Source: Paenibacillus sp. FSL H7-0331 (GTDB lineage: Bacteria; Bacillota; Bacilli; Paenibacillales; NBRC-103111). Taken from it: 64,000 bases of DNA. Positions within the stretch are counted from its first letter, which is position 1; every line of letters starts with the position of its first letter. Position numbers and translations under genes: made by a program. Positions 6,456 through 40,141 of the stretch are shown piece after piece. The stretch lies in NCBI RefSeq assembly GCF_001956045.1, contig NZ_MRTH01000013.1, forward strand, positions 62,001-126,000. Reading direction: 5' to 3'. Below the pieces are notes generated by a model. The model saw nothing but the letters and a program-made list of their open reading frames with translations, was not told where the DNA came from and did no database searches.

Positions 6456-6496
6456 AGTTACGATATGTATCATACAATATGATACAAAATGTAACA
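6456..6496 (+). promoter_or_regulatory. Paired 17-bp operator sites A1/A2 upstream of the PilZ-like gene
   Basis: A1 AGTTACGATATGTATCA (6456-6472) and A2 TGATACAAAATGTAACA (6480-6496) are members of the window-wide palindrome with core GATAC-N5-GTATC, centred 24 bases apart. A1 is followed at once by TACAAT (6473-6478), a good -10, which is the same geometry seen at other sites. The matching -35 position (ATTTTT) is poor. Confidence 0.7.
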
Positions 6497-6572
6497 AATT
6501 CATAATCTGTATGTGATGATAATAAAATACATCGTTACTTCCAAAAAAGGTAATGAAAAGGAGCGCAGCAGA

Positions 6573-6992
6573 GTGATTACCAATACGAAATGGGATCCGA
6601 CCCGTCAGCTAATAACACAAGTGGCCTACAAGGGTCTGATGAAGATGGTACAAATTAACGGGCGCTGCATGGATTCCAATTGGGCACATATCACCGTGCG
6701 CTTCATGAATCTGCGCGGGTTGCGGCTGCAAACCTCTCTTCAGCTGCCTTGCAGCTATCATGTGCTGTGGGAATTTCAGATTGGAGAAGAGACTGAGCTA
6801 ACAGTCCAGAGAGGGATCGTCGTGAATCAGAACCAATTGGGGTCGCGAGGAGGCATTGTAGAATATGAATACGAAGTACGTTTTGTCATGAATGAGAGGC
6901 ACCCACTGCTCATGTATAGGAATGAAAGTTATCGGGAGTCGGGTCTCTGTAACCCTCTGGTGGAGGGGATAATGATAGATTTACTAGCGTGA
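6573..6992 (+). CDS. PilZ-like small protein
   Basis: The likely start is GTG at 6573, nine bases after AAAGGAG (6557-6563), giving 139 residues; an upstream ATG at 6513 has no site. The central part (INGRCMDSNWAHITVRFMNLRGLRLQTSLQLP) resembles the beta-barrel of PilZ domains, where a 'D-S-GG-hydrophobic' turn precedes alternating strands. The N-terminal RxxxR-type c-di-GMP motif is not obvious, so binding may be degenerate. It is preceded by two copies of the EPS operator and sits next to the EPS regulator gene, which suggests a role in polysaccharide production. The domain call is tentative. Confidence 0.55.
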   Translation: MITNTKWDPTRQLITQVAYKGLMKMVQINGRCMDSNWAHITVRFMNLRGLRLQTSLQLPCSYHVLWEFQIGEETELTVQRGIVVNQNQLGSRGGIVEYEYEVRFVMNERHPLLMYRNESYRESGLCNPLVEGIMIDLLA

Positions 6993-7148
6993 ATTCATAA
7001 AGCTTTATTAATATTATTCATTTCGACAAAAATAATAGGTATTTTTTTAAAAGCACACCATCAAGTGACACTTTTTTTTGAAAGTATCTATTATAATAAC
7101 AACATTCCTTGCTATATAATTCCTGATATGGAGAGTGGAGATTTAATG

Positions 7149-7340
7149 ATGAGTACTAAAGTTAGCCTTGATATACGACTAGTATTAGCTGAACTTAAGC
7201 TTTCGATGAAGCAGTTCGAGGAAGCCAATGTACTGAAGACTGAACGATGCTCTCTTAAGGAAATGCCCTTCATGGACAGTTTTGAGCTCCTATCGGAATC
7301 ATATGACAGGGAAATGCATGTAGATCGATACAGTCAATAG
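7149..7340 (+). CDS. Small hypothetical protein, 63 aa
   Basis: ATG at 7149 lies eight bases after GGAG (7137-7140); an ATG at 7146 is in frame and also possible. The product (MSTKVSLDIRLVLAELKLSM...) is soluble, alpha-helical in appearance and acidic in its C-terminal half. I recognise no family. It is 156 bases downstream of the PilZ-like gene in the same direction and could be in the same transcript, although a T-rich stretch near 7070 may separate them. Confidence 0.45.
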   Translation: MSTKVSLDIRLVLAELKLSMKQFEEANVLKTERCSLKEMPFMDSFELLSESYDREMHVDRYSQ

Positions 7341-7390
7341 AAAAAATAAAGCCCTTAGGGCAAAAGAGAAAGTCTTGTCGAGCACCCTCA

Positions 7391-7439
7391 GAAAAAACCA
7401 GGCGATCGTTTCCCTGTTAAGAACAGAGAAGCGTTCGCC
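7391..7439 (-). terminator. Terminator of the first XRE regulator
   Basis: GGCGATCGTTTCCCTGTT (7401-7418) pairs with AACAGAGAAGCGTTCGCC (7422-7439) at 16 of 18 positions. On the minus strand the stem is followed by GGTTTTTTC. It also lies between convergent genes. Confidence 0.8.
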
Positions 7440-7505
7440 GCTTCATATTAATGCTTATACACAGACTCTTTTTTTGAAAATTATAGATTACGGTGCTTGT
7501 CTTCG

Positions 7506-7874
7506 TTAAGATGACGAGCGCTGCGCACGAATGAAATGAATGAAACGTGTAGCTTCCTCGGCAGTTAGTTCTCTTCCATCGATAGTTAAGGTGAATTTAT
7601 CGAGAACCGCTTGATCGGATAGCTCCAGCTGGCTTACGAATTCTTGAGCCGTCGTGCTGGGTTCTTGTCCGGGGTCATCGTTGCGTCCCATTAAATAGTC
7701 TATGGACACACTGAAGAAATCAGCAATTTTTTGAATCGTATCATAATCGGGTTCTCTTCGACTATTCTCGTAATGGGATAAAGCGGAGCGGGTAATTCCT
7801 ACTTTATGGGCTAACTCTTCCTGGGTTAAGTGTCTTTCGTCTCGAAGACTGGCGATACGATGTCCATATTTCAT
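7506..7874 (-). CDS. XRE family repressor-like regulator (XRE-1), full length
   Basis: The 122-residue product has an N-terminal Cro/CI helix-turn-helix (residues 1-64: RIASLRDERHLTQEELAHKV, ITRSALSHYENSRREPD) and a C-terminal segment of about 45 residues ending ELTAEEATRFIHFIRAQ, a probable oligomerisation region as in SinR-type repressors. It is divergent from the EPS glycosyltransferase at 8065 and the intergenic DNA holds two copies of the 17-bp palindrome. The residues around the predicted recognition helix are the same as in the second XRE protein at 9309. I infer it represses the EPS promoters and possibly itself; the direct link is not proven. Confidence 0.85.
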   Translation of the reverse strand: MKYGHRIASLRDERHLTQEELAHKVGITRSALSHYENSRREPDYDTIQKIADFFSVSIDYLMGRNDDPGQEPSTTAQEFVSQLELSDQAVLDKFTLTIDGRELTAEEATRFIHFIRAQRSSS

Positions 7875-7975
7875 TTGATGACACTCCTCCTCAAACTCAC
7901 ACCTTTACCAAAGCTGGAAACCCAAATGTGAATGATATCACTAATTGTACTATAAAAGTTGTTTGCGGAAAATGG

Positions 7976-8029
7976 TTGACTTGATACAATATGTATAGTA
8001 CTCTTTACCTAATGATACATATTGTATCT
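7976..8029 (+). promoter_or_regulatory. EPS promoter with operator in its spacer (B1) and second operator (B2)
   Basis: TTGACT (7976-7981), a 17-base spacer and TACTCT (7999-8004) form the promoter of the 8065 gene. The spacer is exactly operator B1, TGATACAATATGTATAG (7982-7998). B2, TGATACATATTGTATCT (8013-8029), is a near-perfect palindrome 31 bases downstream centre to centre; its reverse complement also matches the consensus. A protein on B1 would compete directly with RNA polymerase. The same DNA is the upstream region of the divergent XRE-1 gene. Confidence 0.8.
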
Positions 8030-8064
8030 AAAACTATTTTGTTCATAATGGGGATGTTTTATTC

Positions 8065-9288
8065 ATGATCCGCAAAAAAATTTTGATCGTGGCTCCGTTT
8101 ACTGTATTGCCTGGAGAGAAGGGTTTTAACCGATTTCGCTATATTGCTGAAGAGCTTGCGATGCTTGGCCATGAAGTCGAGCTTGTGACGAGCAATTACT
8201 CTCACGCTGAGAAAAGCTTTCGTCAACCGGACGCAGAGCAATGGTCAGAAGCTGCACTGCCTTACCAGCTCACGCTAATCGAAGAGAGCGGGTACAAGCG
8301 CAACGTCAGTTTCGCGCGTATTCGCAGCCATCGAAGGTTTGAGCGGAATTTGAAGCTGTACCTTGAGCTTAAGGAAAATAAAGTGGATGTGGTGTACGCC
8401 GCTTACCCCTTAATGGGGGCAGCCCAACTGGCAGGTAGCTTTGCTAAACGGTTGGGAGTACCGTTTATACTGGATATTCAGGATATTTGGCCGGAATCGA
8501 TCAATAGTGTATTAAAACTTCCAGACCGGTGGCTAAAACTGCTGCTGGCTCCTATGACTGCTTATGCCAATCAGGTATATAAGCTCGCTGATTATATCGT
8601 CGGTGTATCGGATACTTATGTTGCGCGTGGTAAGGCAGCGAACCGGAAAGCCAAGGCTTACCATTGTTTGTTCATCGGTGCGGATCAAGCCTATTTTGAT
8701 GTATGTGCCAGCAGGAAGGTGGAAGTAAACAAGCCGATGGGAGAGTTTTGGATTACGTACATCGGTACGCTAAGCCATAGCTATGATATTGAAACGGTTA
8801 TTAAGGCCGTTGCGCTGCTGGAGCGAACCGGATATAGGGATATGGTATTCAATATCTTTGGTTCCGGTCCGCACGAATCGAGATACAGAGAGCTGGCAAA
8901 GCAACTGCAAGCGCCAGTGCGCTTCATGGGTCATCAATCCTATGAGGATATGATTCCTTATCTGGTCCGCTCTGATGTTGCGGCCAATGCGATTAGTAGG
9001 GGAGCGCGGGCAAGCGTTACGAATAAGATAGGTGATTTTCTGTTTGCGGGGCTGCCGATGATTAACAGCTGTGAGAACAAGGAAGTAATGAAAATGGTTA
9101 CGGACTGCCATATCGGTTTTAATTACAGACCAGGTGACTATACGGAGTGTGCTCATTACATCGCCCTGTTGTTCCATCAGAAGCAATTTAGCCGTCAGCT
9201 TGGAGTCAATTCAAGGAATCTTGCAGAAAGTAGATTTGACCGACGCAAAACGTATCCTGAACTGTATAAATTAATATTAAACACATAA
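8065..9288 (+). CDS. GT4 family glycosyltransferase
   Basis: A 407-residue GT-B fold enzyme. The N-terminal half contains NRFRYIAEELAMLGHEVELVT, typical of the acceptor-side nucleotide-fold domain, and DIWPESI, common in GT4 enzymes of the WbuB type. The C-terminal half has ITYIGTLSHSYDIETVIKA and FGSGPHESRYRELA, the donor-binding region. It would transfer a sugar from a nucleotide donor to the lipid-linked EPS repeat on the cytoplasmic side. It is the first gene behind the operator-bearing promoter at 7976 and precedes the second XRE gene by 20 bases. Sugar specificity is unknown. Confidence 0.88.
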   Translation: MIRKKILIVAPFTVLPGEKGFNRFRYIAEELAMLGHEVELVTSNYSHAEKSFRQPDAEQWSEAALPYQLTLIEESGYKRNVSFARIRSHRRFERNLKLYLELKENKVDVVYAAYPLMGAAQLAGSFAKRLGVPFILDIQDIWPESINSVLKLPDRWLKLLLAPMTAYANQVYKLADYIVGVSDTYVARGKAANRKAKAYHCLFIGADQAYFDVCASRKVEVNKPMGEFWITYIGTLSHSYDIETVIKAVALLERTGYRDMVFNIFGSGPHESRYRELAKQLQAPVRFMGHQSYEDMIPYLVRSDVAANAISRGARASVTNKIGDFLFAGLPMINSCENKEVMKMVTDCHIGFNYRPGDYTECAHYIALLFHQKQFSRQLGVNSRNLAESRFDRRKTYPELYKLILNT

Positions 9289-9308
9289 GATCAGAGGGGT
9301 CTGGAAGA

Positions 9309-9611
9309 ATGAAATATGGTCAGCGAATATGCTTGCTTCGCGAAGAAAAACAACTGACACAGGGGGAACTGGCAGAACGAATCGGTATATCCCGTGCTGC
9401 ACTATCACATTATGAGAATAATCGCAGAGAGCCGGATTTTGAAACCTTGAAGCATATCGCAGATTTTTTTTATGTGAATGTCGATTATTTATTGGGAGGT
9501 GTGGGACAGATACATAAAGAAGAGGCTGTCCACCAGACTAAGCCTGCAAAGCTGCTGGGCTATCACATTGTTCATTTCAAACATTGGGTATACCCAAATC
9601 GTTTGTTGTAG
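9309..9611 (+). CDS. XRE family regulator (XRE-2), short form
   Basis: The 100-residue protein repeats the helix-turn-helix of the 7506 regulator: 41 of the first 64 residues are identical, including ALSHYEN and RREPD around the recognition helix. After residue 66 the two diverge completely; this copy ends in a basic, aromatic tail (LLGYHIVHFKHWVYPNRLL) and lacks the ELTAEEATRFI segment. Either the tail is a frameshifted remnant or the protein is a naturally shortened partner that could form mixed dimers with XRE-1, like SlrR with SinR. AGAGGGG precedes the ATG. Expected to recognise the same palindrome. Confidence 0.82.
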   Translation: MKYGQRICLLREEKQLTQGELAERIGISRAALSHYENNRREPDFETLKHIADFFYVNVDYLLGGVGQIHKEEAVHQTKPAKLLGYHIVHFKHWVYPNRLL

Positions 9612-9627
9612 ATTGAGCAAGGTGCAT

Positions 9628-9644
9628 GAGTACAATATGTATCA
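9628..9644 (+). promoter_or_regulatory. Operator site C
   Basis: GAGTACAATATGTATCA matches the consensus in the right half and centre, with a degenerate left end. It is followed directly by TAATGA, in the position of a -10. It lies between XRE-2 and the HPr-kinase-like gene, suggesting an internal regulated start. Confidence 0.55.
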
Positions 9645-9681
9645 TAATGAGCAGGCACATTATGATAGAAAGGGCTTCTTT

Positions 9682-10473
9682 ATGCACAGTATCCATTCGA
9701 TTATAGGAGAGCATTCGATCCGGTTTACAACTTGGTCGGAACAGGTAGTCAGTTGGATCACCGGAACCTTCTACATTGTTCAGGATGGTACGGCTGCTGA
9801 AGAAAAAAGCACAGATCTGCTGGTTCATATTGATGAGCAGAGTGGTGCACCATTCGAGAGCTTTGATGTTCGTGTGCTGTCGGATGATAACTATATCTGT
9901 TATAAGCGTTCGGATTATACGGTTCGCGTCAATCGGAGCCACACGAAAGCATCGATTTACGTATACGATGATTTTGCATTAAAGCACGCTTTATTGAATT
10001 TATACAGCTCGTTTGTCATTTACCATGGATGGGGATTGCTTCTCCACGCATCCTGTCTGGAGGAAGGAGACCGGGCCTACGTATTTGCCGGGCAGTCCGG
10101 GGCTGGGAAATCGACGGTGATCAAATTATCCTCACCACGATTGGTGCTTTCCGATGAGGTAGCGATTATCCGGGTGCAAAAGCAGGACATTACCGTGTTT
10201 AATTCTCCATTTCGCAGTGAGATCAAGTCAACGGAAAGAACAAAACAACGTCTGGGGGGGATCTTCATATTAAAGCCGTCACATCAGGTTCAGCGAATCC
10301 CTTTTAGAAAGCCGGACGGGATTTTCCATTTGTTAAATCACTTGTTTTATTGGACTACAGATATAAAGGAATCGAACAAAGTATTGATGATGTGCAAAAT
10401 GCTTGCCGATCGAGTCCCCATTGCCCAGTTGAATTTTCAGGAAAACGATACCTTCTGGGAGTATATTGTATGA
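9682..10473 (+). CDS. HPr-kinase-like P-loop protein
   Basis: The 263-residue product has a Walker A loop GQSGAGKST at residues 137-145, preceded by GLLLHAS with a conserved histidine, and a following LVLSDEVAII segment that fits the HprK-like Walker B. It lacks the separate N-terminal domain and capsule signature of genuine HPr kinase, so it belongs with HprK-related proteins found near PqqD proteins in peptide-modification and polysaccharide clusters. In paeninodin-type lasso peptide loci such a kinase phosphorylates the precursor. The start is ATG at 9682 after GAAAGGG; upstream frame sequence overlaps XRE-2 and the operator. It overlaps the next gene by ATGA. The substrate here is unknown. 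Confidence 0.8.
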   Translation: MHSIHSIIGEHSIRFTTWSEQVVSWITGTFYIVQDGTAAEEKSTDLLVHIDEQSGAPFESFDVRVLSDDNYICYKRSDYTVRVNRSHTKASIYVYDDFALKHALLNLYSSFVIYHGWGLLLHASCLEEGDRAYVFAGQSGAGKSTVIKLSSPRLVLSDEVAIIRVQKQDITVFNSPFRSEIKSTERTKQRLGGIFILKPSHQVQRIPFRKPDGIFHLLNHLFYWTTDIKESNKVLMMCKMLADRVPIAQLNFQENDTFWEYIV

Positions 10474-10736
10474 ACACGCTATATAAACGGAGTTCATTGA
10501 CGCAGGCTGTGGAGTGTGAGGGTGAATGGGTGATTATTCATGTCAGTCACGATACGATTACAAAGCTTAACGATACGGCCGGTTCCTTGTGGGCCATGCT
10601 GAATAAGAGTATGACCGTTAACCAGTTAGTGGCGTTAGCTAGCAGTCACAATATGCCTTTGACGGAGGTAGCTGCTGCAGATATTGAGATGCTGCTGGAG
10701 CAATTGGTCCACATTGGATTAGTCGAGAAATGGTAA
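10470..10736 (+). CDS. PqqD family protein
   Basis: The 88-residue product (IHVSHDTITKLNDTAGSLWAML, then EMLLEQLVHIGLVEKW) fits the PqqD fold, a small winged-helix domain that binds leader peptides in RiPP pathways (RRE). It starts at the ATG that overlaps the stop of the HprK-like gene, so the two are translationally coupled. No precursor peptide, asparagine synthetase, protease or radical SAM enzyme is present nearby, which separates this pair from known lasso or PQQ loci. Similar HprK/PqqD pairs occur in polysaccharide export loci; what the pair does is not established. Confidence 0.82.
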   Translation: MNTLYKRSSLTQAVECEGEWVIIHVSHDTITKLNDTAGSLWAMLNKSMTVNQLVALASSHNMPLTEVAAADIEMLLEQLVHIGLVEKW

Positions 10737-10742
10737 TTTCAT

Positions 10743-10793
10743 TGATACAAAATGTATTGTTTTCTTATGGTGATTATGATACAATATGTATCA
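10743..10793 (+). promoter_or_regulatory. Main EPS operon promoter with operators D1 and D2
   Basis: D1 TGATACAAAATGTATTG (10743-10759) and D2 TGATACAATATGTATCA (10777-10793, a perfect match to the consensus) are 34 bases apart centre to centre. A promoter TTGTTT (10757-10762), 17-base spacer, TACAAT (10780-10785) lies between, with its -35 overlapping the end of D1 and its -10 inside D2. Occupation of either site would block it. It is the only obvious promoter ahead of the 17-gene run. Confidence 0.75.
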
Positions 10794-10824
10794 TAAGAAT
10801 AAACTTTGAGACTGGAGGATGTAT

Positions 10825-11571
10825 ATGGAATTCGATTTGAAGTTCTTATTAAAGATTCTGAAAAAAAAGCTAGGACTCATCCTATTGGTAGTCGTCATTG
10901 CTGGCGGGTTCAGTTTTTATTGGAGCAAGTATCAGATGAAGCCAGTATATGAAGCTTCGACCAAACTGATCGTGAACAAGGCACAGGAAAATGCAGCAAT
11001 GCTCGATTATAATACAGTCAATTTGAATATCAAGCTGATTGATGTGTACAAGGAAATTATTAAATCACCGGCAGTGATGGACATCGTTGCCCGCCAAAAT
11101 TCGACCCTGGGCTACACGTCCGAGCAGCTCATCAAGAAGGTGCAGATCAGCGGAATCCCGCAAACGCCGATCATGGTCATGACATTTGAAGATCAGTCGC
11201 ACGAGAAAGCTGTTACCTTGATCAACTCCATAGCCAATGTTTTCCAAGGTCAGATTCCGTTGATAATGAAGGTGGATAATGTAGTCATTCTGAATGAGGC
11301 TAAATCCACGGATCACCCGGAAGCGATAAGTCCACAGGTATACTTTAATGTAGCGCTGGCTATGACGATAGCGATAATTTTTATGATCAGTATGGTCGTT
11401 CTGCTTGAATATTTGAACGATACTGTTCAATCAGAAGAGGATATCTGGTCGGAATTAGGTATTCCTACATTGACGGCCATCGCCAAGGTCAGAAAAAAAG
11501 ATATCAAAGCAAGCCGTGCCCTATACACCAATACCAAGGTAGGAGGATCCAGCCATGTATCCGTCCTCTAG
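10825..11571 (+). CDS. Chain-length/kinase-modulator protein (Wzz, CapA/YveK type)
   Basis: A 248-residue membrane protein: short cytoplasmic start (MEFDLKFLLKILKKK), first membrane segment about residues 14-32, an extracellular alpha/beta domain, and a second membrane segment about residues 168-190 after the Pro-containing PEAISPQ. This is the Gram-positive Wzz form that recruits and activates a separate tyrosine kinase. ATG at 10825 is seven bases after CTGGAGG; the ATG at 10819 is too close. It overlaps the kinase gene by 17 bases. Together they control EPS chain length and assembly at the membrane. Confidence 0.9.
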   Translation: MEFDLKFLLKILKKKLGLILLVVVIAGGFSFYWSKYQMKPVYEASTKLIVNKAQENAAMLDYNTVNLNIKLIDVYKEIIKSPAVMDIVARQNSTLGYTSEQLIKKVQISGIPQTPIMVMTFEDQSHEKAVTLINSIANVFQGQIPLIMKVDNVVILNEAKSTDHPEAISPQVYFNVALAMTIAIIFMISMVVLLEYLNDTVQSEEDIWSELGIPTLTAIAKVRKKDIKASRALYTNTKVGGSSHVSVL

Positions 11572-12238
11572 ACAATACCCGCTGCTAATTCAATCCCAAT
11601 CCAAATCATCCGTCTCTGAAGCGTTCAAAACGTTGCGTACGAATATCCAATTTTCGGTTAAAGACGTTGAACCCAAGGTCGTACTTGTCACTTCGGCAGA
11701 AAAGGGTGAAGGCAAATCGACCACTACTGCCAATCTGGCAGCCGCGTACGCGCTTGATAACAAGCGGGTGATTATGATCGATGCCGATTTACGCAAACCG
11801 ACCCTGCACCACTTTTTTAGCAAGACGAACCGGGTTGGGCTGTCCAATCTGTTGGTACAGCAATGCAATTTGGAGGAAGCGATTTGGGAAACAGGAATTC
11901 CCGGACTGATGCTAATCGGAGCAGGTACGATTGCTACCCACCCTACGGAAATGCTCGGATCAGACCGGATGAAGGCGCTCATCCATAAGCTGGCACAATC
12001 CTTTGATATCATTTTGATTGATTCACCGCCTGTCATGATGTTCTCCGATGCCCAGATTTTGGCTTCACAATGTGATGGTGTGCTGATGGTCGTTAATTGT
12101 GGAAGGGTAAAGAAGAGGATTGCCAGAAAGGCAAAGGAGCAGCTAGATTTCGTCGGCGCACGGATTTTGGGTGCGATCATGAACAATGTTAAAAAGCATG
12201 ATGAAGACTTTCAATACTATTATGGAGCCAATTCATGA
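11555..12238 (+). CDS. BY-family protein tyrosine kinase (CapB/EpsB type)
   Basis: The 227-residue cytoplasmic ATPase shows Walker A (SAEKGEGKST, residues 47-56), Walker A' (VIMIDADLRKP, about 72-82) and Walker B (IILIDSPP). The C-terminal tail carries FQYYYG, a short cluster of tyrosines that would be autophosphorylated. With the adjacent CapA-like protein it forms the split kinase typical of Firmicutes, and regulates polymerisation and UDP-sugar enzymes. It overlaps both neighbours by a few bases, so is tightly coupled. Confidence 0.92.
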   Translation: MYPSSRQYPLLIQSQSKSSVSEAFKTLRTNIQFSVKDVEPKVVLVTSAEKGEGKSTTTANLAAAYALDNKRVIMIDADLRKPTLHHFFSKTNRVGLSNLLVQQCNLEEAIWETGIPGLMLIGAGTIATHPTEMLGSDRMKALIHKLAQSFDIILIDSPPVMMFSDAQILASQCDGVLMVVNCGRVKKRIARKAKEQLDFVGARILGAIMNNVKKHDEDFQYYYGANS

Positions 12239-14061: not shown

Positions 14062-14088
14062 AAATAACCTAAAGGAGCGCAAACAGAC

Positions 14089-15114
14089 ATGATCCATTTT
14101 GCCATAGTAGGCTGCGGTCATATTGCCCAGAAGCATGCGGAATCGATCCAATTCATTCAGGATGCGCATTTACACGCGGTTTGTGATACAAATCGTATCA
14201 CACTTGATGATTTTATTGTAAAGACCGGAGCCATCGGCTACACCGATTATAGTGAAATGCTAGATGATCCGAAGATCAACGTAGTCAATATTTGCACACC
14301 GAGTGGTTTGCATGAAAGATTGGCGGTGCAGGCTGCGAACGCAGGTAAGCACATTATTGTGGAGAAGCCGGTAGCCTTAACGCTTGCGGCTGTGGACCGA
14401 ATTGAGGAAGCATGCCTCAGAAATGGAGTCAAATGCGCTGTTGTACATCCTAACCGGTTTCGCCCTGCTATTGTAGAGTTGAAGAAAATGATCGATCAAG
14501 GTCGGTTTGGAACCATCAGCCATGTCAATGCAACCGTCCGCTGGAATCGGAATCAAGCCTACTATGATCAAGCCGATTGGCGAGGAACGAAGGCTATGGA
14601 CGGCGGCGTACTGATGAATCAAGCCATACATAATCTGGATTTGCTGCTGTGGCTGATGGGTCCAGTCAAACGGGTGCATGCCATAACTTCAACCCGATTA
14701 CGTGCTATTGAAGCAGAGGATGTTGCAGCCGCTATATTGGAATTTGAAAATGGAGCTGTGGGTGTGATCGAAGCGGCATCCACGATCTATCCGAAAAATT
14801 ACGAGGAATCGATCAGTATTTTCGGCGAAACCGGTACCGCTGTGATAGGGGGGCCAACGGCAAGCTGGATAAAGCACTGGGTTTTCGAGCATTCGTTACC
14901 GAGCGAGAACGAGCAGCTGATTCAAATCATTGAAGCGGATCCGTACGGTATTCCTGGCCACCAGCGAATCATCAGGGATATGGTAAGAGCCATCCGTGAT
15001 GATCGAGAACCACTTGTCACCCTGAGAGACGGTCGCAATGCGTTGAAGCTGGTTCTCGATATTTACGCAGCCGCCGAACGCAGTGCATTGGAGCACGAAG
15101 AGGTAAGTCAGTAA
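14089..15114 (+). CDS. Gfo/Idh/MocA oxidoreductase, WbpB-like
   Basis: A 341-residue NAD-dependent sugar oxidoreductase with GCGHIAQKH at the dinucleotide fold, EKPVALT at residues 92-98 and WRGTKAMDGGVLMNQAIHNL, a stretch typical of WbpB/WlbA, which oxidises UDP-GlcNAcA at C3. The neighbours WbpE-like aminotransferase and WbpA-like dehydrogenase support this assignment. Odd feature: codons 32-38 contain a perfect copy of the EPS operator (14184-14200). GGAGCG precedes the ATG. The reaction is well supported by context rather than by the family alone. Confidence 0.85.
   Translation: MIHFAIVGCGHIAQKHAESIQFIQDAHLHAVCDTNRITLDDFIVKTGAIGYTDYSEMLDDPKINVVNICTPSGLHERLAVQAANAGKHIIVEKPVALTLAAVDRIEEACLRNGVKCAVVHPNRFRPAIVELKKMIDQGRFGTISHVNATVRWNRNQAYYDQADWRGTKAMDGGVLMNQAIHNLDLLLWLMGPVKRVHAITSTRLRAIEAEDVAAAILEFENGAVGVIEAASTIYPKNYEESISIFGETGTAVIGGPTASWIKHWVFEHSLPSENEQLIQIIEADPYGIPGHQRIIRDMVRAIRDDREPLVTLRDGRNALKLVLDIYAAAERSALEHEEVSQ
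14184..14200. promoter_or_regulatory. Intragenic copy of the EPS operator (site G)
   Basis: TGATACAAATCGTATCA has perfect TGATAC and GTATCA half sites with five bases between, inside the WbpB-like coding sequence. An exact 12-base match of this arrangement is not expected by chance in 64 kb, but coding constraint could still explain it. It could act as a roadblock or internal operator. Confidence 0.45.
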
Positions 15115-15178
15115 ATAGACAGTAGACAACGAAACAGGTTTACCCAGAATAAACAGCTTTCGAAAATGATATATAGAA

Positions 15179-28453: not shown

Positions 28454-28508
28454 TTGACACGATACGATATGTATCATAAAATTAATGATAAAGATACAAA
28501 TCGTTTCG
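28454..28508 (+). promoter_or_regulatory. Promoter with operator in its spacer (E1) and second operator (E2)
   Basis: TTGACA (28454-28459), 17 bases, TAAAAT (28477-28482) is a near-consensus sigma-A promoter. Its spacer is operator E1, CGATACGATATGTATCA (28460-28476). E2, AGATACAAATCGTTTCG (28492-28508), is a weaker copy 32 bases downstream. It drives the GT2-deacetylase pair. Confidence 0.82.
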
Positions 28509-28531: not shown

Positions 28532-29581
28532 GTGAAAACGGAAATATCAGATTCGTTGGAAGTGAGCGTTATTATCCCGACGTACAATGAAGAACCGTAT
28601 ATAGCCGGAGTTGTGCAAAGCCTGATTGATCAACAATTTTTCGGACATATCGAAATTATCATCATCGATGGAGACTCCAGCGACCAGACGGTTGCCATCG
28701 TGAACAAGATGCGTGAGCTGCTGCCACTGAACCGCAGCATCGTCATTTTGAGCAACCCGAAGCGGCACATTCCGATATCCCTTAACATGGGGTGCCAGCA
28801 AGCCAAATCGAAACTATTGATCCGTTTGGACGGTCACACGTTTGCCCCTGTCAATTATGTGATGGAAGTGATCAAGATGTTGGGAGCGGATGGATCGAAG
28901 CGAATTATTTGTGGAGGCAGAATACAGATCGAACCGGGTACCCGGGCACTTGCCGCACAAGCCATAACATTGGGAGTCAGTCATCCGGTCGGTATAGGTA
29001 ATGCGATGTACCGGACAATGGATGGCTTCGATGAAAATTGTCTTGAAGTAGATACAGTTCCTTTTGCCAGCTTTAGCAAGCAGCTCTGGATGGAATTGGG
29101 AGGCTTTGATGAATTTCTTTTGTACGACGAAGATTCCGACTTCAATTTCCGGGCCCGTCAGAAAGGCTGCAAAGTCATTCTGAATCCGCGTATTGTATTT
29201 ACCTATTTTTCCAGACCGACGTTCTCTTTGTTAGGGCAGCAATATTATCGTTACGGTTTTTGGGTTTCCAAATTTCTTGTCAAGCATAAGAGACTTCCCA
29301 CAATTAGAAAACTGGCTCCCATTACGTTTCTTGCTGCGCTGCTCGTTTTGGGCTTTATCCATATAGGTTTATGGCAAGTGATGTTGCTGATTTATACAGT
29401 CGTTATTGCCGTTGTTTCGTTTCGTGAAGCAGTTATCAAACGGAAAGATTGGAGGCTCTGGCTACCACTGTTCCTTGTGTTTCCAACCTTGCATTTATCC
29501 TATGGTATTGGCAACCTGATCGGGATTGCTACCAGTATCAGCCTGCCTTTTCAAGGAAAGCCATTCATAAGCTACAAGTAA
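28532..29581 (+). CDS. GT2 family glycosyltransferase (ExoA-like)
   Basis: The 349-residue protein has a GT-A domain: VSVIIPTYNEEPYIAGVVQS, IIIIDGDSSDQTV (nucleotide), and a later DED-containing FLLYDEDSDFNFRARQKG (metal and base). Two hydrophobic segments follow near the C-terminus, so it is membrane-attached. This layout fits ExoA-like beta-glycosyltransferases. GTG start at 28532. It has its own promoter bearing the EPS operator, so it can be expressed apart from the main run. Confidence 0.88.
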   Translation: MKTEISDSLEVSVIIPTYNEEPYIAGVVQSLIDQQFFGHIEIIIIDGDSSDQTVAIVNKMRELLPLNRSIVILSNPKRHIPISLNMGCQQAKSKLLIRLDGHTFAPVNYVMEVIKMLGADGSKRIICGGRIQIEPGTRALAAQAITLGVSHPVGIGNAMYRTMDGFDENCLEVDTVPFASFSKQLWMELGGFDEFLLYDEDSDFNFRARQKGCKVILNPRIVFTYFSRPTFSLLGQQYYRYGFWVSKFLVKHKRLPTIRKLAPITFLAALLVLGFIHIGLWQVMLLIYTVVIAVVSFREAVIKRKDWRLWLPLFLVFPTLHLSYGIGNLIGIATSISLPFQGKPFISYK

Positions 29582-30622: not shown

Positions 30623-32467
30623 ATGAGTAACAGCGTAACGATCAATAATATTAAGGACTATGGAGCAGTTGGGAATGGTTCGACTGACGATACAGCAGCT
30701 TTTACCAAAGCTGTGGCTTCGTTACCCAGTGGCGGTATTCTTTATCTACCGATAGGTACCTATTTAGTTACCAATCTAGTACTAGTTAAAAACAACCTTA
30801 CCATACGGGCTGAAAAGGGTGCCAAGATTACGAGTTCCATCGTTCCGTCAGCAAGCGATGTAGCCATTATGAAAATAACGGGCAATAATCTGGTGATCAG
30901 TGATTTGGAGATTGCTTATACAGGGATTGCCACAGCGAAGCTCGGCGGGAAGGCTCGTAACGGACTACAGGTGCATGGCAACAACATCTATATTGAAAAT
31001 GTTGAGGTACACAACACCACATGGGCCGGCATCGCAACAGGCGGTGTAGATACCAGTAATGTCACCATTCTGAACTGCAACTGCCACCACAACGGCATGG
31101 CTGGCATTAGCACGGGTAATACGGCCGATCCCAAGACAAGCGGTTATCCGACGGAGATTAACGTACTTGGCGGGTCGTACAATAGCAATGGGAACCCTTC
31201 CTTCAATACGTTTGATGGATATGGAATGACCCTTGATGTCATAACTGCCAAGGTCATTGGAGTTACAGCCAATTACAACTTTGGGCGTGGGATCGACTCG
31301 CATTATTGCCTAAAGAGTCTGCAGATTTCCAACAATTATTGTGAAGGCAACGGATTGGTCACTGATGGCAGCAAGGATACGATCGGTATTCAGGTGACGC
31401 GCACAGGCAGAAATGTGGTCATCAGCAACAACGTAGTCAAGGATATGAAATATTTGGAGTGCGTGGGTATCCTAGTTGGAGGAGATGCCAGTTATCCGAC
31501 AAATGGCATAGGTAACGTCGTCATTACGGGTAATTCCATCGAGAACATCAAAAACGCTGGTATCTTTGTCAGAGGATATAAAACAGACCGGGTTGTCATT
31601 ACGGATAATATTCTTCGCGATACCCTGGGTCTATTTGTTCAGCCGAATACTCCTGCCGATGCGAATGCACATATTAAAAACCTGTTGATATCCAATAATA
31701 TTAACACCAATACGGGCGGCGATGCTTATTTGCAAATTGGGGGCCAAAAGAATGGAGACTTTATAACAGTCACAGGAAACATAAGTGATTCCCTGAGTCT
31801 AGCTTTCTATACGAAACATAAAGGTTCTTTCCAGATCAAGGATAACAAGCTCTTACAACCTATTACCCTTAATTGTCCGGCAAGTACCGGCAATGTGGAT
31901 GGGAACCTGTTCGAATTACTGAACTATACCGGTTCAACCGGGATGATCCTGAATGAAGATTACTATAAGGGTTCCTTCAGAGGAAACACAATACTGAATT
32001 CGCCCGGCTCGGGAATAGAAATATGCAATGGTACCTATGATGTCGCCAACAACACGATTATCAACCCAAGTCGATCAGGTTCAGGCCGTGGTAACGGTAT
32101 TTTAGTAATTGACGGTACTCCCAAGATAACTAACAATTATATCTCATGTACGGATGGAAAGATGGCAGTCGGTGTCCGTATAGATGTTTACAACAGAGGC
32201 TTGCTCATTAATGGTAATACGATTGAGCATAGCACGGATAATACGTTAGGTTATCGGAATACTGCCGGTAAAATTTATGCGGAGTATCTGGTCGATCCTA
32301 CGATGAAGCAATTCCAAATGGGCTATACCGCAGCGCCTACAGATAAGCTCGGCTGGAAGGTAGGAGACCTGGTTTATCATAAGAGTCCGACCACGAACGT
32401 GGGCTGGATGTGTGTTTCTTCTGCATCGGGTTCAGGGACATGGGCCAATATGACAGGAAAGGCATAA
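30623..32467 (+). CDS. Right-handed beta-helix protein (pectate-lyase superfamily)
   Basis: The 614-residue product opens DYGAVGNGSTDDTAAFTKAV, the pectate-lyase-3/tail-spike signature, followed by many short repeats of the beta-helix type (ISNNVVKDM, VVITGNSIENIKNAG, IEHSTDNTLG). The last 50 residues (LGWKVGDLVYHKSP..GWMCVSSASGSGTW) are a small module found at the ends of phage tail-spike and bacterial polysaccharide-active proteins. There is no obvious signal peptide. It likely binds or cuts the EPS, or is derived from a phage depolymerase. TGGTGATG precedes the ATG. Catalytic residues are not identifiable with certainty. Confidence 0.82.
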   Translation: MSNSVTINNIKDYGAVGNGSTDDTAAFTKAVASLPSGGILYLPIGTYLVTNLVLVKNNLTIRAEKGAKITSSIVPSASDVAIMKITGNNLVISDLEIAYTGIATAKLGGKARNGLQVHGNNIYIENVEVHNTTWAGIATGGVDTSNVTILNCNCHHNGMAGISTGNTADPKTSGYPTEINVLGGSYNSNGNPSFNTFDGYGMTLDVITAKVIGVTANYNFGRGIDSHYCLKSLQISNNYCEGNGLVTDGSKDTIGIQVTRTGRNVVISNNVVKDMKYLECVGILVGGDASYPTNGIGNVVITGNSIENIKNAGIFVRGYKTDRVVITDNILRDTLGLFVQPNTPADANAHIKNLLISNNINTNTGGDAYLQIGGQKNGDFITVTGNISDSLSLAFYTKHKGSFQIKDNKLLQPITLNCPASTGNVDGNLFELLNYTGSTGMILNEDYYKGSFRGNTILNSPGSGIEICNGTYDVANNTIINPSRSGSGRGNGILVIDGTPKITNNYISCTDGKMAVGVRIDVYNRGLLINGNTIEHSTDNTLGYRNTAGKIYAEYLVDPTMKQFQMGYTAAPTDKLGWKVGDLVYHKSPTTNVGWMCVSSASGSGTWANMTGKA

Positions 32468-32486
32468 TAGTAGGAAAAGGTATTAA

Positions 32487-32535: not shown

Positions 32536-32577
32536 TTTGAGTAGAAGATATTTCATCAAAACTTCGACATTTACAGC

Positions 32578-33156
32578 TTAAAAGTGCAGCGTCTTCGTCA
32601 TAAATATCGAACTTTCCTTTTCTACTTCTATTACAAAACCTTTTCGATAATAAAATTGTATGGCTCGGTTATTGGTCTTTTTTACGGATAAACTGTAGGC
32701 GTCAGATTCCAACCCAACTTGCTTTTCAAATTCATTGATAAGTTCTGAGGCAACACCAGTTCCTTTTGCATTTTCGGATACTGATATCGAAAGCAGGCTG
32801 ATTAAATTGGCATCAGTTTCAGAAACCGAGGCAGGGTCTGGTTTGATTAAACGTAGTCTTCTGAATGCTTGCAGATAAATATAGGGTCTGAATATGGTTT
32901 CAATAATATAATGCAGCTTATTGTCGTGGATAAATTTCTCCTTTGACTTATTCAGATTTACATATCGTCCACCCATAACAAAGCCATTGATCACTTCATC
33001 AGATACGCTTACAAGAAATATGCAGGAGTCCAGGTAGCTTTCGTAAAATTTTTGGATCATCTTGACCGAGTACCTTCCCAGAAAGTGATCATTAAATTGC
33101 TGCTTATGAATTCGTGCAATCTCATTCATGTCAGAGTGATTTGCTTGTCTAATCAT
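32578..33156 (-). CDS. GNAT family N-acetyltransferase
   Basis: A 192-residue protein with the acetyl-CoA-binding segment VSENAKGTGVASELINEFEKQ and the beta-4/5 tail KTNNRAIQFYYRKGF, typical of GNATs. It is last in the leftward operon that starts with the putative Wzy and may modify an EPS building block, although a small-molecule substrate is equally possible. GGAGGTGAC precedes the ATG. Lower-GC codon use than the main operon is apparent, which hints at separate origin. Confidence 0.85.
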   Translation of the reverse strand: MIRQANHSDMNEIARIHKQQFNDHFLGRYSVKMIQKFYESYLDSCIFLVSVSDEVINGFVMGGRYVNLNKSKEKFIHDNKLHYIIETIFRPYIYLQAFRRLRLIKPDPASVSETDANLISLLSISVSENAKGTGVASELINEFEKQVGLESDAYSLSVKKTNNRAIQFYYRKGFVIEVEKESSIFMTKTLHF

Positions 33157-33228
33157 ACGAAGTCACCTCCTATTAGTTAGATTGGAATGGATTCTAACGA
33201 TTGCAGCGAAGGATGCTAATATTTGCTC

Positions 33229-34275: not shown

Positions 34276-34318
34276 CCTTTCGATTCCGAGTAGGGTATAC
34301 CCCTACTCGGGAGTTCTA

Positions 34319-37300: not shown

Positions 37301-37483
37301 ATTCCTGGCGGCTTGAACTTTCTTCGGAGTGTAATAGGTGCTTCTTGTTTTCACGGGATCTGTGCTCTGGAGTGCACTCGAGGTTGTATCCTCAAAAGGT
37401 ATAAACAGCGCTATAGCCGACACGATAAATGAAAGACCAAACGTCCAAACTATAGATTTTTTCTTAAACCCATTGAATCGCAT
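34319..37483 (-). CDS. Heparinase II/III-like polysaccharide lyase, exported
   Basis: A 1054-residue protein with an N-terminal signal (FKKKSIVWTFGLSFIVSAIALFIP), an alpha-barrel region of roughly 450 residues (NSHGLTGQGKILGSVWEAAL, VGFHQSTLAMAAVVL), and a beta-sandwich half. Around residue 590, STSHAHKDSLNLGMHAFG with PDLGYVSYADNNW and ERNTISHNTVTVD carries the His and Tyr residues characteristic of heparinase II/III (PL12/15/17/21). It is presumably a lyase acting on uronic-acid-containing EPS, matching the GlcNAcA-type sugars predicted for this locus. It follows the GT4 gene in the leftward operon. Confidence 0.85.
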   Translation of the reverse strand: MRFNGFKKKSIVWTFGLSFIVSAIALFIPFEDTTSSALQSTDPVKTRSTYYTPKKVQAARNNIAKYDWAKTIRNDAVAEADRYLRRGSSLLWESITPQTIPRSYTVNQYEGSPITGQELNQYGAYPYEFNVGKEPWKLTDPSSGYKFPTNDYGAYYKSGLNANGIFDSNLADRNLLVNQLYPDKGKTWGVDDGSGWIDASGNKFTFIAYYNHWAIWRDFVNKALLSLRDAYLYTGDPKYASAGIILLHRIADVYPSMDVSAYKWDDGFRNSHGLTGQGKILGSVWEAALLRDIISCYDAFFPAMQDNDSDWVRFLEERRKIYYPDEEPLNAGSIRKHIEDQILRQIYPAVKKAQIYGNVGFHQSTLAMAAVVLDDPSVTREWIDFIFRTGGLMEDSKGVRVTGGNINYVLMYDVDRDGLGNEASPEYNSYWLDNLRQVADILNGYDRYPEMDIYQNVKFHKMFSAFVPFVLSGKYSPSIGDSGSTGKPEIWLNKKALVKGFEVYGDPILAQAAVFANKNSITGLINDIFMLDPDTTIKNIQNVIKTQGTLQLNSVNLSGYGLAILRDGTTRTAEDMKKTDNQRDLWMYYGRNSTSHAHKDSLNLGMHAFGLDLMPDLGYVSYADNNWLSMYWERNTISHNTVTVDKSIQSESWTGNPLHFDNTGQVQLIDVEAPHVYSQTELYRRTTSLIRVDDNNSYAVDFFRVQGGSNHDFSFHTGDGVLTTQGLKLTNQPEGTYAGSKIPYANEAYTTKSSSGFNYLTNVKIANNPSLISSMDWKLTDTWKALPGPADIHLRLTMLGKLDHIALADGKPPQNKPGNPESLRYVIAHRSGTELSSTFTSVIEPYRKERYIESIEEASVFYQGNLVPNMEARAVKVTLKSGRTDYIISALDRNKSYIVDNRIQFQGSFGYYSEKALVPVYAYVQEGSFIGLPEAPAISGVAPSIEGKVTNWSGGLTDNNWLEVDLKKLGDMQFGSLTGRSIRINHAGLAVDSPNTVFEIKGSSNLPDGKVRIELGDTPIVHGWKDPRDYSKGYDYLVADGDTFTIPLSTERKY

Positions 37484-37521
37484 TCTCTCACTCCTCTTAC
37501 TGCTCGTTATCCATGCTTGAA

Positions 37522-38691
37522 TTAACCACTGTCTGCAGTCAACTGTTTACGATTTCTTTTATTTCGATTATCAAATTTCGGTTTCATCAGCTGTTCGTAC
37601 AGCTCATTCAACTTGTGGCCCTCTGGCTCCCAATTATAATGCGTAACAGCGGCCTGACGTCCATTCTCTCCCATCCGCTGCGCTTCCTCCGGATGCTCCA
37701 GCACATATCGTATCGCATTTGCCATCAAATGGGGCTTCATGGGGGGGATACATAGACCGCACTGGTTGCCTTCGATAATTTGTTTCCACAAAGGAAAGTC
37801 GGAGGCAAGCACCGGTATACCTGCGGACATATACTCGAACAGCTTGTTTGGCTGCGACATAATAAAATTGGGCTCCGGATGCAGTACGACTAACCCCAGT
37901 TTACTTTGTGACATGATCTCACGAAATTGCTCTCGGTCGACCCTTCCTCGATAATCGACGAATTTCCAACCACTCAGCTGGCGAACCTGGTCAAGCAGTT
38001 CAGGAGGTGAAAAATTACCGCCAAGGAGTAGGTTAACTGGCATAATCCGATTTAACTGCTCAAGGCATTCGATTGTATCTTTAATGCCTCTGACCTCGGA
38101 GATGCTACCGATATAAGCAATATTATTATGTTCCTTGATCTTGGAGCCCTCGTGACTTATCAGTTCATCCAATAGAGGGAAGTTTTGAATTTCATAAGTA
38201 TGTGGATTGTAGGTCCGAAACCGCTCGGCAATAAAAGGAGTCGCCGGGATGATGGCATCCATACGTTTGGACACAAACCGTTCTATAGCCTCGACACTTA
38301 GAGAAACTGGCTTTTTAAGCCAATCGGGAATCCAACCCTTGGAAAAAATATCTCTCGGAACATCTTCGTGAACGTCATAAATCACTCGTTTTCCAAGTAT
38401 TTTAAGCAGCAGTCCAATAGGCATAAGCTCGGGATCATGATAATGATAAATATCCGCATCCTGTCTCAAACATTCCCGAAACACCCTTATCGTTGTAAAC
38501 AGCATGCGAGTGAGACGTCTTGAAGAACCTTTGCCAACACCGATGACCTGAATGCCATTGATAAGCTCATTTTTATCATGTGCGGCGATCAGTCTGACAT
38601 CGTGACCGTAATTTTGCAGCGTGCTGCACTCTTTAAAGGTTATACGTGTATCATAGACATGGTGGACAGATGTGAAGTGGACAATTTTCAT
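37522..38691 (-). CDS. GT4 family glycosyltransferase
   Basis: The 389-residue enzyme has GHDVRLIAAHDKNEL, ADIYHYHDPELMPIGLLLK, VIYDVHEDVP, IAYIGSISEVRGI and EYMSAGIPVLASDFPLW, the standard GT4 pattern. It overlaps the Wzy-like gene by ATGA on the minus strand, so it is translationally coupled. It adds a sugar of the EPS repeat before polymerisation. Confidence 0.92.
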   Translation of the reverse strand: MKIVHFTSVHHVYDTRITFKECSTLQNYGHDVRLIAAHDKNELINGIQVIGVGKGSSRRLTRMLFTTIRVFRECLRQDADIYHYHDPELMPIGLLLKILGKRVIYDVHEDVPRDIFSKGWIPDWLKKPVSLSVEAIERFVSKRMDAIIPATPFIAERFRTYNPHTYEIQNFPLLDELISHEGSKIKEHNNIAYIGSISEVRGIKDTIECLEQLNRIMPVNLLLGGNFSPPELLDQVRQLSGWKFVDYRGRVDREQFREIMSQSKLGLVVLHPEPNFIMSQPNKLFEYMSAGIPVLASDFPLWKQIIEGNQCGLCIPPMKPHLMANAIRYVLEHPEEAQRMGENGRQAAVTHYNWEPEGHKLNELYEQLMKPKFDNRNKRNRKQLTADSG

Positions 38692-39998
38692 ACTTGAACC
38701 GGCTCCTTTTGTTTAAGTGCACGAGATCGACGAGTGGGAATTTTCAATATGCCAGCTCCAAGAGATAACCCAATGACAAACCAGAAATATTTCATAATCG
38801 TCGTTTCTAGAAAAAACGATTCAACCATATAGGCAATCAGCAAGCCTTTGAGCAGCAGGTTCAAATTGCTTTCGGATGAAGCCCTGAACGTACGCCACAG
38901 GGAGGCTAGCATGAGGGCCAGACCAATAATTCCCGTCTGAATCGCAGCTCCCAAATAAATGTTGTGGGCTCCGTATGGTGGATATTCTTGATACTTGTGA
39001 TAAGTACCTGACCCCGTGCCGATAATCAGATGGTCCGCGAATACGCCAATAGCGTGTTCCCAAATCATCGTTCTGCCGGACCCTCCGCTGTCTACTGCCT
39101 GCTCAGAACGGGCTGTAATAATATGTTCAAGCTCAGGGATGGAAGTAACCCCAAACAACACAATTCCGCTGACCAGAATGACGGCGACTGCCTTTTTCCA
39201 GTTAAAATTAGCGAGCAGCATAAACAGTAGAGCGGCAGCTAATCCCATCCAGGCGCTGCGCGTACCAGAGAGAATGACGGCTGTGATTTGAATCAGGGCA
39301 ATCGGAATTAACCCAACCCTGAGTAAAATTGATTTGCTGTGCAATACACAGTGGATAAGGTACAGCAGGCCGGGAATAATCATGGCGGCAAAATGGGCAA
39401 CGCTTTGTTCCTCGAAGGCGCCGGTACGTGTACCCTCTGTCAGATCAGCGCCTTGCATGAAATTCATGATGCTATATAATGAAGTAATTGTTGTGGCAAT
39501 ACTGTAAAAGGCTAATAGAATGGGGATCCGTTTCGGGTTTTGATGTAGAAGATTGACCATCAACACCAACATAAAGAACAATTGCACATAAGTTGCAACG
39601 CTGAACCATACTGCGGCAAAGAAAGCATCAGGCGTCCAGAGGATGCTGGCTATGTTCCATACCAACCATACCCACCAAACGGCGGGTATGAGATTAAACT
39701 TGATTTGGCGGAAATGGGTAATCAGATATACAGCTGCAAAAAGAAGGCCGAACCCCTTGGTCAGAGTATTAAAAATCCCCCCCACCCTAAGAATATCCTC
39801 GAAAGGAATTGCCACCGAGTAAGCCACAAGAGGAATAAAAGGATATCGAAGAGAGAGGAACAACCCGTAAGTTAATGCTATCGCAATCAATATAATGAGC
39901 AAGGAATCCGTCATAATACCAGCTGCCAGAATCCCAATACAAAGCAACGATAACATCACGTACAGCAGTCCTGTTCGCTGTAATACCAATATTGCCAC
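38688..39998 (-). CDS. O-antigen ligase/polymerase-like membrane protein (putative Wzy)
   Basis: The 436-residue protein has about ten to twelve membrane helices, and the Wzy_C-type segment between helices: GGSGRTMIWEHAIGVFADHL followed by GTGSGTYHKYQEYPPYGAHNIYLG with the conserved R and H. This family polymerises or ligates lipid-linked glycans outside the membrane; as the only candidate in the locus it is the likely EPS polymerase. The start is GTG at 39998, with poor SD; a TTG three codons later is possible. The promoter is the operator-bearing one at 40113-40141. Confidence 0.83.
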   Translation of the reverse strand: MAILVLQRTGLLYVMLSLLCIGILAAGIMTDSLLIILIAIALTYGLFLSLRYPFIPLVAYSVAIPFEDILRVGGIFNTLTKGFGLLFAAVYLITHFRQIKFNLIPAVWWVWLVWNIASILWTPDAFFAAVWFSVATYVQLFFMLVLMVNLLHQNPKRIPILLAFYSIATTITSLYSIMNFMQGADLTEGTRTGAFEEQSVAHFAAMIIPGLLYLIHCVLHSKSILLRVGLIPIALIQITAVILSGTRSAWMGLAAALLFMLLANFNWKKAVAVILVSGIVLFGVTSIPELEHIITARSEQAVDSGGSGRTMIWEHAIGVFADHLIIGTGSGTYHKYQEYPPYGAHNIYLGAAIQTGIIGLALMLASLWRTFRASSESNLNLLLKGLLIAYMVESFFLETTIMKYFWFVIGLSLGAGILKIPTRRSRALKQKEPVQV

Positions 39999-40080
39999 GC
40001 CCTATCATAATTAGTATAAAAGTGGAATTTGCTTAATATCCTACTTAATAAGTATTCAAAAATTTTCATACTCACATCTT

Positions 40081-40141
40081 TGACACGTTTTGTAACAAGT
40101 ATCTATAAATGAATAATACGATACGTTTTGTATCAAGTCAA
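40081..40141 (-). promoter_or_regulatory. Leftward promoter with operator in its spacer (F1) and second operator (F2)
   Basis: Read leftward: TTGACT (40141-40136), the 17-base spacer TGATACAAAACGTATCG (40135-40119), TATTAT (40118-40113). The spacer is again an exact copy of the EPS operator class. F2, TGTTACAAAACGTGTCA on the minus strand (40097-40081), lies 38 bases downstream. This promoter heads the wzy-GT4-lyase-GH43-GNAT operon. Confidence 0.82.

Follow-up and report, generated by a model that had tools for sequence, protein, structure and literature searches.

A GATAC-N5-GTATC palindrome as the probable operator of a phage-type XRE repressor family at matrix genes of the Paenibacillaceae

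The window analysed here is a stretch of 64,000 nucleotides from Paenibacillus sp. FSL H7-0331 (contig NZ_MRTH01000013.1, positions 62,001 to 126,000), and our subject is a 17-bp palindrome with the core GATAC-N5-GTATC that recurs in its exopolysaccharide (EPS) locus, where two XRE-family proteins, XRE-1 and XRE-2, are also encoded. Comparison with related genomes leads us to regard the palindrome as probably the operator of the XRE-1 family, that is, of a repressor of the phage type (resembling PBSX Xre, the arbitrium-phage repressors and ImmR) that would serve as a chromosomal regulator in the Paenibacillaceae.

The palindrome and its association with XRE-1

An earlier sequence-only reading of the window had listed twelve copies of the palindrome, and all twelve were recovered by a pattern search and by a position matrix built from relatives (coordinates give base 1 of the 17-mer, the GATAC core beginning one base further on). 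The core is exact at 8014, 10778, 14185, 28461 and 40120, has one mismatch at 6457, 6481, 7983, 10744 and 28493 and two at 9629 and 40082; additional one-mismatch matches lie at 31376 (within an EPS-locus gene, less than 8 bits in the matrix) and 54581. With up to two mismatches allowed the pattern occurs 37 times in the window where 22.8 are expected (sd 4.7; none of 100 shuffles as high), which exceeds chance only modestly. The matrix, trained on 76 loci of relatives with the window excluded, is the sharper test: it gave 12 places of at least 12 bits, exactly the 12 listed copies (12.2 to 27.1 bits), whereas 20 first-order Markov sequences had 0.45 such places on average and never more than 2. 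Other places of at least 8 bits are 24091 (11.7), 54580 (11.0), 17119 (9.4) and 46813 (8.3), so that, barring the weak matches at 46813 and 54580, the cobalamin and right-hand genes are free of copies, as had been said. Eleven copies stand in front of genes, as five pairs (24, 31, 34, 32 and 38 bp from start to start) and the single copy at 9628; the twelfth, at 14184, does lie within coding sequence, and that at 10777, picked out by the first reading as the best match, also has the highest matrix score. Site blocks are retained between the window and P. agricola at all four promoters compared, the single 9628 copy included. The 14184 copy keeps 16 of its 17 bases there within a 300-bp stretch that is 79% identical, which may reflect coding constraint or an internal roadblock.

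Relatives were drawn from a scan of reference genomes with an XRE-1 alignment, which confirmed 292 of them; the best were taken as 76 loci (1.48 Mb; 77 loci with the window), mostly from Paenibacillus, plus Cohnella, Gorillibacterium and metagenome-assembled genomes, and were picked by the protein and not by the motif (loci and genomes are designated L and G below). These 76 Paenibacillaceae loci contain 231 exact palindromes, against at most 13 for any of 59 other palindromes made from permuted GATAC, and the consensus was refined to T-GATAC-RWWWY-GTATC-A, i.e. with the centre [A/G][A/T][A/T][A/T][T/C]. The genome-wide scan that the first reading had called for was run in relatives, from which, rather than from the window's own genome, all genome-wide figures come. 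In eight whole genomes the loose palindrome lies only partly above its reversed control (27/9, 12/6, 19/2, 12/10, 27/5, 25/1, 14/2 and 7/2, the 12 versus 10 being that of G004), and the refined word is rare, with 9, 6, 5, 17, 15, 3, 2 and 7 copies (2 to 17 per genome) and no match of the reversed control in any of the eight. The refined word was present in 13 of 13 genomes examined of the window's genus, with two control matches in all. Sites below the stated bit thresholds are excluded from the counts.

The refined word was also counted in 198 sampled genomes of the order, in which XRE-1 was searched at E up to 1e-25. The 142 genomes with XRE-1 have a median of 6 sites (at least two in 133, none in 5) and the 56 without it a median of 0 (at least two in 4, none in 38), an odds ratio of 192 for 133/142 versus 4/56. 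G198, which with its 13 sites looks like an exception, carries an XRE-1 orthologue split over two frames (C129:58969-59327), perhaps through a sequencing error or recent loss, and G054, G055 and G095 (2, 2 and 3 sites) have more distant XRE proteins only. On a tree of a single gene, RecA, for 100 of the 198 genomes (selected from the listed places, with G198 scored XRE-positive owing to its split gene), parsimony assigns 9 changes to XRE presence (mean of shuffles 32.7) and 14 to motif presence, so that the match is imperfect; site numbers are 0-3 per genome in the 10 maximal clades lacking XRE, the correlation by independent contrasts is r=0.54 (p=6e-9), and six of seven sister comparisons have more sites on the XRE side, one showing the reverse. 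The link between XRE-1 and the sites withstands tree correction on these 100 genomes. Sites also lie close to the gene itself, 59 of 76 XRE genes having one no more than 320 bp upstream as compared with 266 of 1317 open reading frames (ORFs) of at least 100 amino acids in the same loci. XRE-1 has both an HTH_3 domain and operators near its own gene; binding of the palindrome by its family is predicted, and XRE-1 is probably the binder. The enrichment at XRE-1 loci, the upstream sites and the co-occurrence support the earlier claim of a dedicated regulon covering both strands of the EPS locus.

The alternative that survives best is that the palindrome is bound chiefly by XRE-2 or another HTH-only paralogue, XRE-1 being merely linked to it. 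XRE-2 has nearly the same recognition region as XRE-1, and short HTH-only paralogues in L011, L041, L042 and L070 likewise have sites in front. It is XRE-1 orthologues, however, that site number follows over the 198 genomes, and HTH-only forms were seen in 4 of the 76 relatives' loci (a count from the list of loci with more than one XRE-type target, no separate search having been made), and we consider this reading unlikely.

Promoter geometry and the proposed mechanism

The position of the sites relative to promoter boxes was examined for all sites of at least 16 bits in the 77 loci in both orientations, which gave 870 distinct contexts, 536 with a downstream gene and 334 without. A TTGACA-like box abuts the start of the operator and a TATAAT-like box its end in 74 of the 536, against a background mean of 1.5 per offset and spacer and 15 for the next best arrangement; among the 334 without a downstream gene, 16 have this arrangement (mean 0.55). 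When four or more of six matches are required in each box, the spacer is filled in this way in 92 contexts, distributed over 63 of the 77 loci. The spacing of successive sites is commonly 28-41 bp and peaks again at 70-72 bp, and at XRE genes sites are most frequent 100-120 bp ahead of the start codon. Within the window, TACAAT inside the 10777 operator is a plausible −10, with TTGTTT at 10757-10762 (by eye). A 17-bp operator that fills the gap between −35 and −10 points to repression, and the arrangement fits a steric mechanism that may be cooperative.

We propose that XRE-1 would bind as dimers to TGATAC-RWWWY-GTATCA, the first operator usually lying within the −35/−10 spacer and the second at a distance of about three helical turns, in many cases where transcription is expected to start. 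Bound there it would obstruct RNA polymerase, and EPS and matrix genes would stay off. XRE-2, whose recognition region is nearly identical, may be a competitor at these sites, and the small protein encoded tail-to-tail with XRE-1 would be the best candidate for relieving it.

An operator located between −35 and −10, together with sites upstream of XRE-1's own promoter, would also be expected if XRE-1 were mainly an activator whose spacer operator aligns weak promoters in the fashion of MerR. However, spacers of 17 bp are normal and require no realignment, the −35 boxes are often perfect TTGACA and the closest characterised relatives of XRE-1 are repressors, all of which makes activation as its main role distinctly improbable.

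XRE-1 and known systems

Residues 2-120 of XRE-1 match the arbitrium-phage repressor 9sf2 by sequence profile (E 3.3e-16), and the best PDB fold matches of its structure model (pLDDT 88, pTM 0.59) are arbitrium-phage repressors, followed by DdrO, RghR, P22 c2, SinR and ImmR. The NCBIfam phage RstR repressor family gives 77.1 bits, slightly below its cut-off of 80. The profile and fold matches liken XRE-1 to the arbitrium repressors (9iaq, 9sf2) and to ImmR of ICEBs1 (7t8i), from which it differs in lying in a host EPS locus and not among lysis-lysogeny genes.

A class-wide sample of 151 genomes has any copy in 43 and at least four copies in 9, of which 8 are also in the order sample. Six outgroup loci were opened, three of them chosen for clustered copies; in five an XRE protein having an HYE..R.EPD region lies within about 400 bp of a site, and in the sixth the copy falls within a large DNA-ligase-like gene. 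That region is nearly the same in XRE-1 and XRE-2. In L183 a PBSX-Xre-like protein (by eye) with the region HYENGRSEPD has three palindromes in front, and in L184 the repressor is followed by an ImmA-like peptidase (by eye). The site class has a precedent, as outgroup Bacilli bear the palindrome next to PBSX-Xre-like genes. The palindrome thus belongs to a recognition class, of which XRE-1 is the likely chromosomal user here, the regulator possibly having passed from phage to host. The likeness to PBSX Xre of Bacillus subtilis lies in the L183 protein beside the same palindrome; XRE-1 differs in its C-terminal domain, in being encoded among EPS genes and in having sites at numerous promoters dispersed over the chromosome.

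The word might also be the site of SinR or another known biofilm regulator, given the XRE family, the EPS targets and the SinI and SinR genes in related genomes; SinR/SinI of B. subtilis resembles the present system in XRE-family control of EPS genes, and a small partner protein is plausible here. The SinR-like proteins of relatives, however, have another recognition region (AKSYLSSIER, where XRE-1 has SALSHYENSRREPD; compared by eye) and, as targets, are encoded behind the word, sinI and sinR being candidate targets in some species, and no SinI/SinR-type C-terminal domain (PF08671) was found in XRE-1 by Pfam at E up to 10. On these two differences SinR was rejected as the binder, and the reading as a whole is very improbable. 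The SinR box probably differs in sequence from the palindrome. The idea that the repeats are non-regulatory, e.g. leftover phage operators or a structural element, draws on the occurrence of the same word beside prophage-type repressors in outgroups and is scarcely credible in view of the promoter position, the spacer-filling geometry and the retention of sites by species whose DNA is about 75% identical.

DegU/DegS and Spo0A of Paenibacillus polymyxa also regulate EPS in this genus (PMC9195935), and a word search of the main text of that paper gave no SinR, SinI or XRE. The main text of a 2025 survey of XRE palindromes contains no GATAC or GTATC (PMC12565409), and the available portions of PMC8457756, PMC5730154 and PMC7911366 contain nothing on a GATAC-N5-GTATC operator. 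Among 5.39 million papers the exact strings of six common copies occur in a single one (PMC4243335). Searches for XRE/SinR control of EPS in Paenibacillus gave no account of the present regulon among the matches listed, subscription journals lying outside the coverage.

Several observations weigh against XRE-1 as a phage-type repressor acting at the palindrome. Its full-length fold matches have TM scores of about 0.5 and a root-mean-square deviation of about 10, which limits close superposition to the HTH part, and no close relative of it was found in the phage collection, where 751 of 50,697 records match, each at less than 60% identity. Nine of the 142 genomes with XRE-1 carry fewer than two refined sites and 17 of the 76 XRE genes are without an upstream site; moreover, the 76 loci that served to refine the word probably share species with the 198 genomes, so that the tests are not fully independent. 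Of 10 window copies of at least 16 bits examined, those at 28460 and 40119 alone have a clean spacer fit and that at 7982 has it in part, and a simple promoter scan of 6200-11000 gave no excess (14 versus 11.0, sd 3.4), the 7982 promoter being absent from its list. Finally, at XRE-1's own promoter the conserved TACAAT box is preceded by the sites (closest relatives, by eye), so that XRE-1 may not repress its own gene, or may activate it. Even with these points counted, an operator of a phage-type XRE-1 repressor is the reading that we hold probable.

Target genes and the small protein beside XRE-1

Features of the window are collected in Table 1. In addition, an inverted repeat TATCATAATG...CATTATGATA at 9638-9668 lies beside the 9628 copy and overlaps that operator (by eye). 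A cobalamin riboswitch (RF00174, 96.7 bits) at 40240-40454 precedes the cobalamin genes directly to the right of the last operator pair, and a glycosidase-like protein (4428-6023, minus strand; Pfam GH26, E 2.2e-11) is encoded to the left of the locus; large secreted proteins near operators in L114 and L131 were likened to it by eye only.

Table 1. Putative operators, promoters and genes of the window (scores in bits are from the position matrix unless stated otherwise)
Feature	Position	Strand	Remarks
Small Cys-containing ORF	6142-6342	−	Divergent from 6456/6480 pair; possible second target; relative in L001 near sites
Operator copy AGTTACGATATGTATCA	6456-6472	+	21.6 bits; paired with 6480; TACAAT behind; 17-mer identical in P. 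agricola
Operator copy TGATACAAAATGTAACA	6480-6496	+	24.5 bits
PilZ-like family gene	6513-6992	+	Probable real start GTG 6573 behind AAAAGGAG (by eye)
Small protein, candidate antirepressor	7146-7340	+	64 amino acids; tail-to-tail with XRE-1
XRE-1, proposed repressor	7506-7874	−	122 amino acids; HTH_3 2.9e-19
Promoter-like TTGACT-[17-bp operator 7982]-TACTCT	7976-8004	+	Weak second box; for 8065 gene; near-identical block in P. agricola
Operator copy TGATACAATATGTATAG	7982-7998	+	21.4 bits
Operator copy TGATACATATTGTATCT	8013-8029	+	Exact core, 26.1 bits
Glycosyltransferase	8065-9288	+	First gene after 7982/8013 pair; Pfam
XRE-2, paralogue	9309-9611	+	100 amino acids; HTH_3 1e-15; HTH recognition region near-identical to XRE-1, C-terminus different
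Single operator copy GAGTACAATATGTATCA	9628-9644	+	12.2 bits; before HprK-related gene; 25-bp block identical in P. agricola
HprK-related protein	9682-10473	+	30.4 bits, far below family cut-off of 200
PqqD-like protein	10470-10736		Behind HprK-related gene
Operator copy TGATACAAAATGTATTG	10743-10759	+	20.4 bits
Operator copy TGATACAATATGTATCA	10777-10793	+	Best match, 27.1 bits; identical in P. agricola
Wzz-type chain-length gene, EPS operon head	10819-11571	+	Pfam Wzz 3.5e-13; cluster preceded by sites in 20/77 loci
Intragenic operator copy	14184-14200	+	25.7 bits; inside GFO/IDH/MocA-type gene 14089-15114
Promoter TTGACA-[operator 28460-28476]-TAAAAT	28454-28482	+	Operator occupies whole 17-bp spacer
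Second operator of 28460 pair	28492-28508	+	16.2 bits; approximately over expected transcription start (position inferred)
Family 2 glycosyltransferase	28532-29581	+	Behind 28460/28492 pair
Wzy-type polymerase/ligase	38688-39998	−	First gene of left-going unit; Pfam Wzy_C 1.6e-22
Second operator of left-going promoter	40081-40097	−	13.8 bits
Promoter TTGACT-[operator 40119-40135]-TATTAT	40113-40141	−	Operator occupies whole spacer

In the 76 relatives an ORF begins no more than 400 bp from 372 of 440 sites of at least 16 bits, and 33 sites lie inside ORFs only; it should be noted that ORFs were called from the first start codon, which makes some site-gene distances too short and left those of L155 and L157 unmeasurable. 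Target clusters, named by Pfam on one or more members or by eye, comprise XRE-type proteins in 61 cases over the 77 loci (XRE-1 relatives for the most part, the others being a few paralogues and SinR-like proteins), PilZ-like proteins (36), a metallophosphatase (25), a 171-amino-acid tyrosine recombinase (22), Wzz (20), a small secreted protein (18), a small CxxC protein (16) and LCP (13). The proposal of an EPS regulon therefore holds in that EPS units are targeted and fails in that they are not the only targets, since PilZ-like, LCP, metallophosphatase, recombinase, secreted and small-protein genes and some sinI and sinR genes are included, and the list across relatives is that of a matrix regulon and not of EPS alone. 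Elsewhere in the eight genomes sites precede genes resembling Wzz, CpsB-type phosphatases, LCP and secreted proteins (by eye); intragenic sites there (L093, L096, L100, L102, L138 and one in L133) may be background. The PilZ-like label of the window gene comes from its relatives: the family has sites in front in 36 of 77 loci, and with E values up to 1 allowed Pfam PilZ was matched by 8 of the 33 members scanned (of 36; best E 2.6e-8), but not by the window's own protein. The regulon may also reach lasso-peptide-type genes, to judge from the HprK-related and PqqD-like genes of the window (9682-10736) and from a lasso-cyclase-like gene with operators in front in L020 (7152-9140), all under NCBIfam cut-offs.

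A pattern search found SinI-like ORFs in 15 loci of the 76 relatives but none in the window; three examples, from L030, L033 and L139 (39.2, 34.6 and 37.5 bits), exceed the Pfam PF08671 cut-off of 31.4. When 30 loci were fetched by the SinI family, 11 had sites, every one beside a SinI-type ORF (at a distance that could not be measured in two). SinR-like genes lie behind sites in L048, L068 and L074 and farther from them in L132 (335 bp) and in L167 and L168 (about 230 bp). The 171-amino-acid recombinase is a single-domain protein (PF00589), encoded for instance at L022 10750-11286 and L121 4074-4598 with operators in front and within matrix loci, and weakly matches tyrosine-type DNA invertases. 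Phase variation by this recombinase was considered and rejected, as a search for inverted repeats in four loci (at least the five longest of six pairs in one of them) gave no invertible promoter common to the loci; in L022 the longest inverted pair consists of two operator-bearing promoters, face to face.

The small protein beside XRE-1 belongs to a family of 75 members (E <0.01; core LDI..IL.QL.I...K) in 65 of the 77 loci, found by an iterated profile search of short ORFs whose profile was trained on its own hits. Over the 77 loci 40 members converge tail-to-tail on XRE. A site is present up to 330 bp ahead of the core in 41 members, of which 15 belong to the 40 convergent ones and 26 to the 35 located elsewhere; the window copy has no operator in front. 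For 14 chosen pairs the pooled pN is 0.19 and pS 0.44, with Ka/Ks of 0.08 to 0.89 in 13 and undefined in one, purifying selection as expected of a translated gene. Pfam on 34 of the 75 members gave weak matches only (best E 0.03), NCBIfam on the same number two weak matches (best Xis_Gifsy_1, 0.0026, in 1 of the 34) and a PDB profile search an unrelated best match (6dxn, E 0.01), a single-sequence search giving none, so that no convincing known family was matched. A protein database search by shared words, of limited sensitivity, returned the window's own copy alone, and the fold model is of low confidence (pLDDT 71, pTM 0.35). Small antirepressors of phage repressors are known (review PMC11323111), the PDB titles of 9iaq and 9sf2 naming arbitrium-phage repressors bound by AimX, and by analogy with such proteins the small protein may relieve XRE-1.

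The control of EPS synthesis and biofilm formation in Paenibacillus, a genus relevant to biocontrol, nitrogen fixation and industrial polysaccharides, is poorly described, and the effects of EPS clusters on biofilm are called 'little known' in the abstract of PMC7911366. For an order-wide regulon the present analysis offers a candidate regulator and a list of targets, together with a promoter geometry and an operator whose background is close to zero, and the XRE-1 family may switch off biofilm-matrix genes across the order. More tentatively, and with more doubt than confidence, we suggest that this order-wide matrix switch came from a captured phage lysogeny module, in which XRE-1 would be the master repressor of EPS and, standing above SinI/SinR in some species, of the biofilm programme, with the small protein, other copies of which lie behind an operator, as its antirepressor. 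The sites suggest that sinI and sinR would sit below another repressor in some species, and the new small-protein family is offered as a possible component of the switch.

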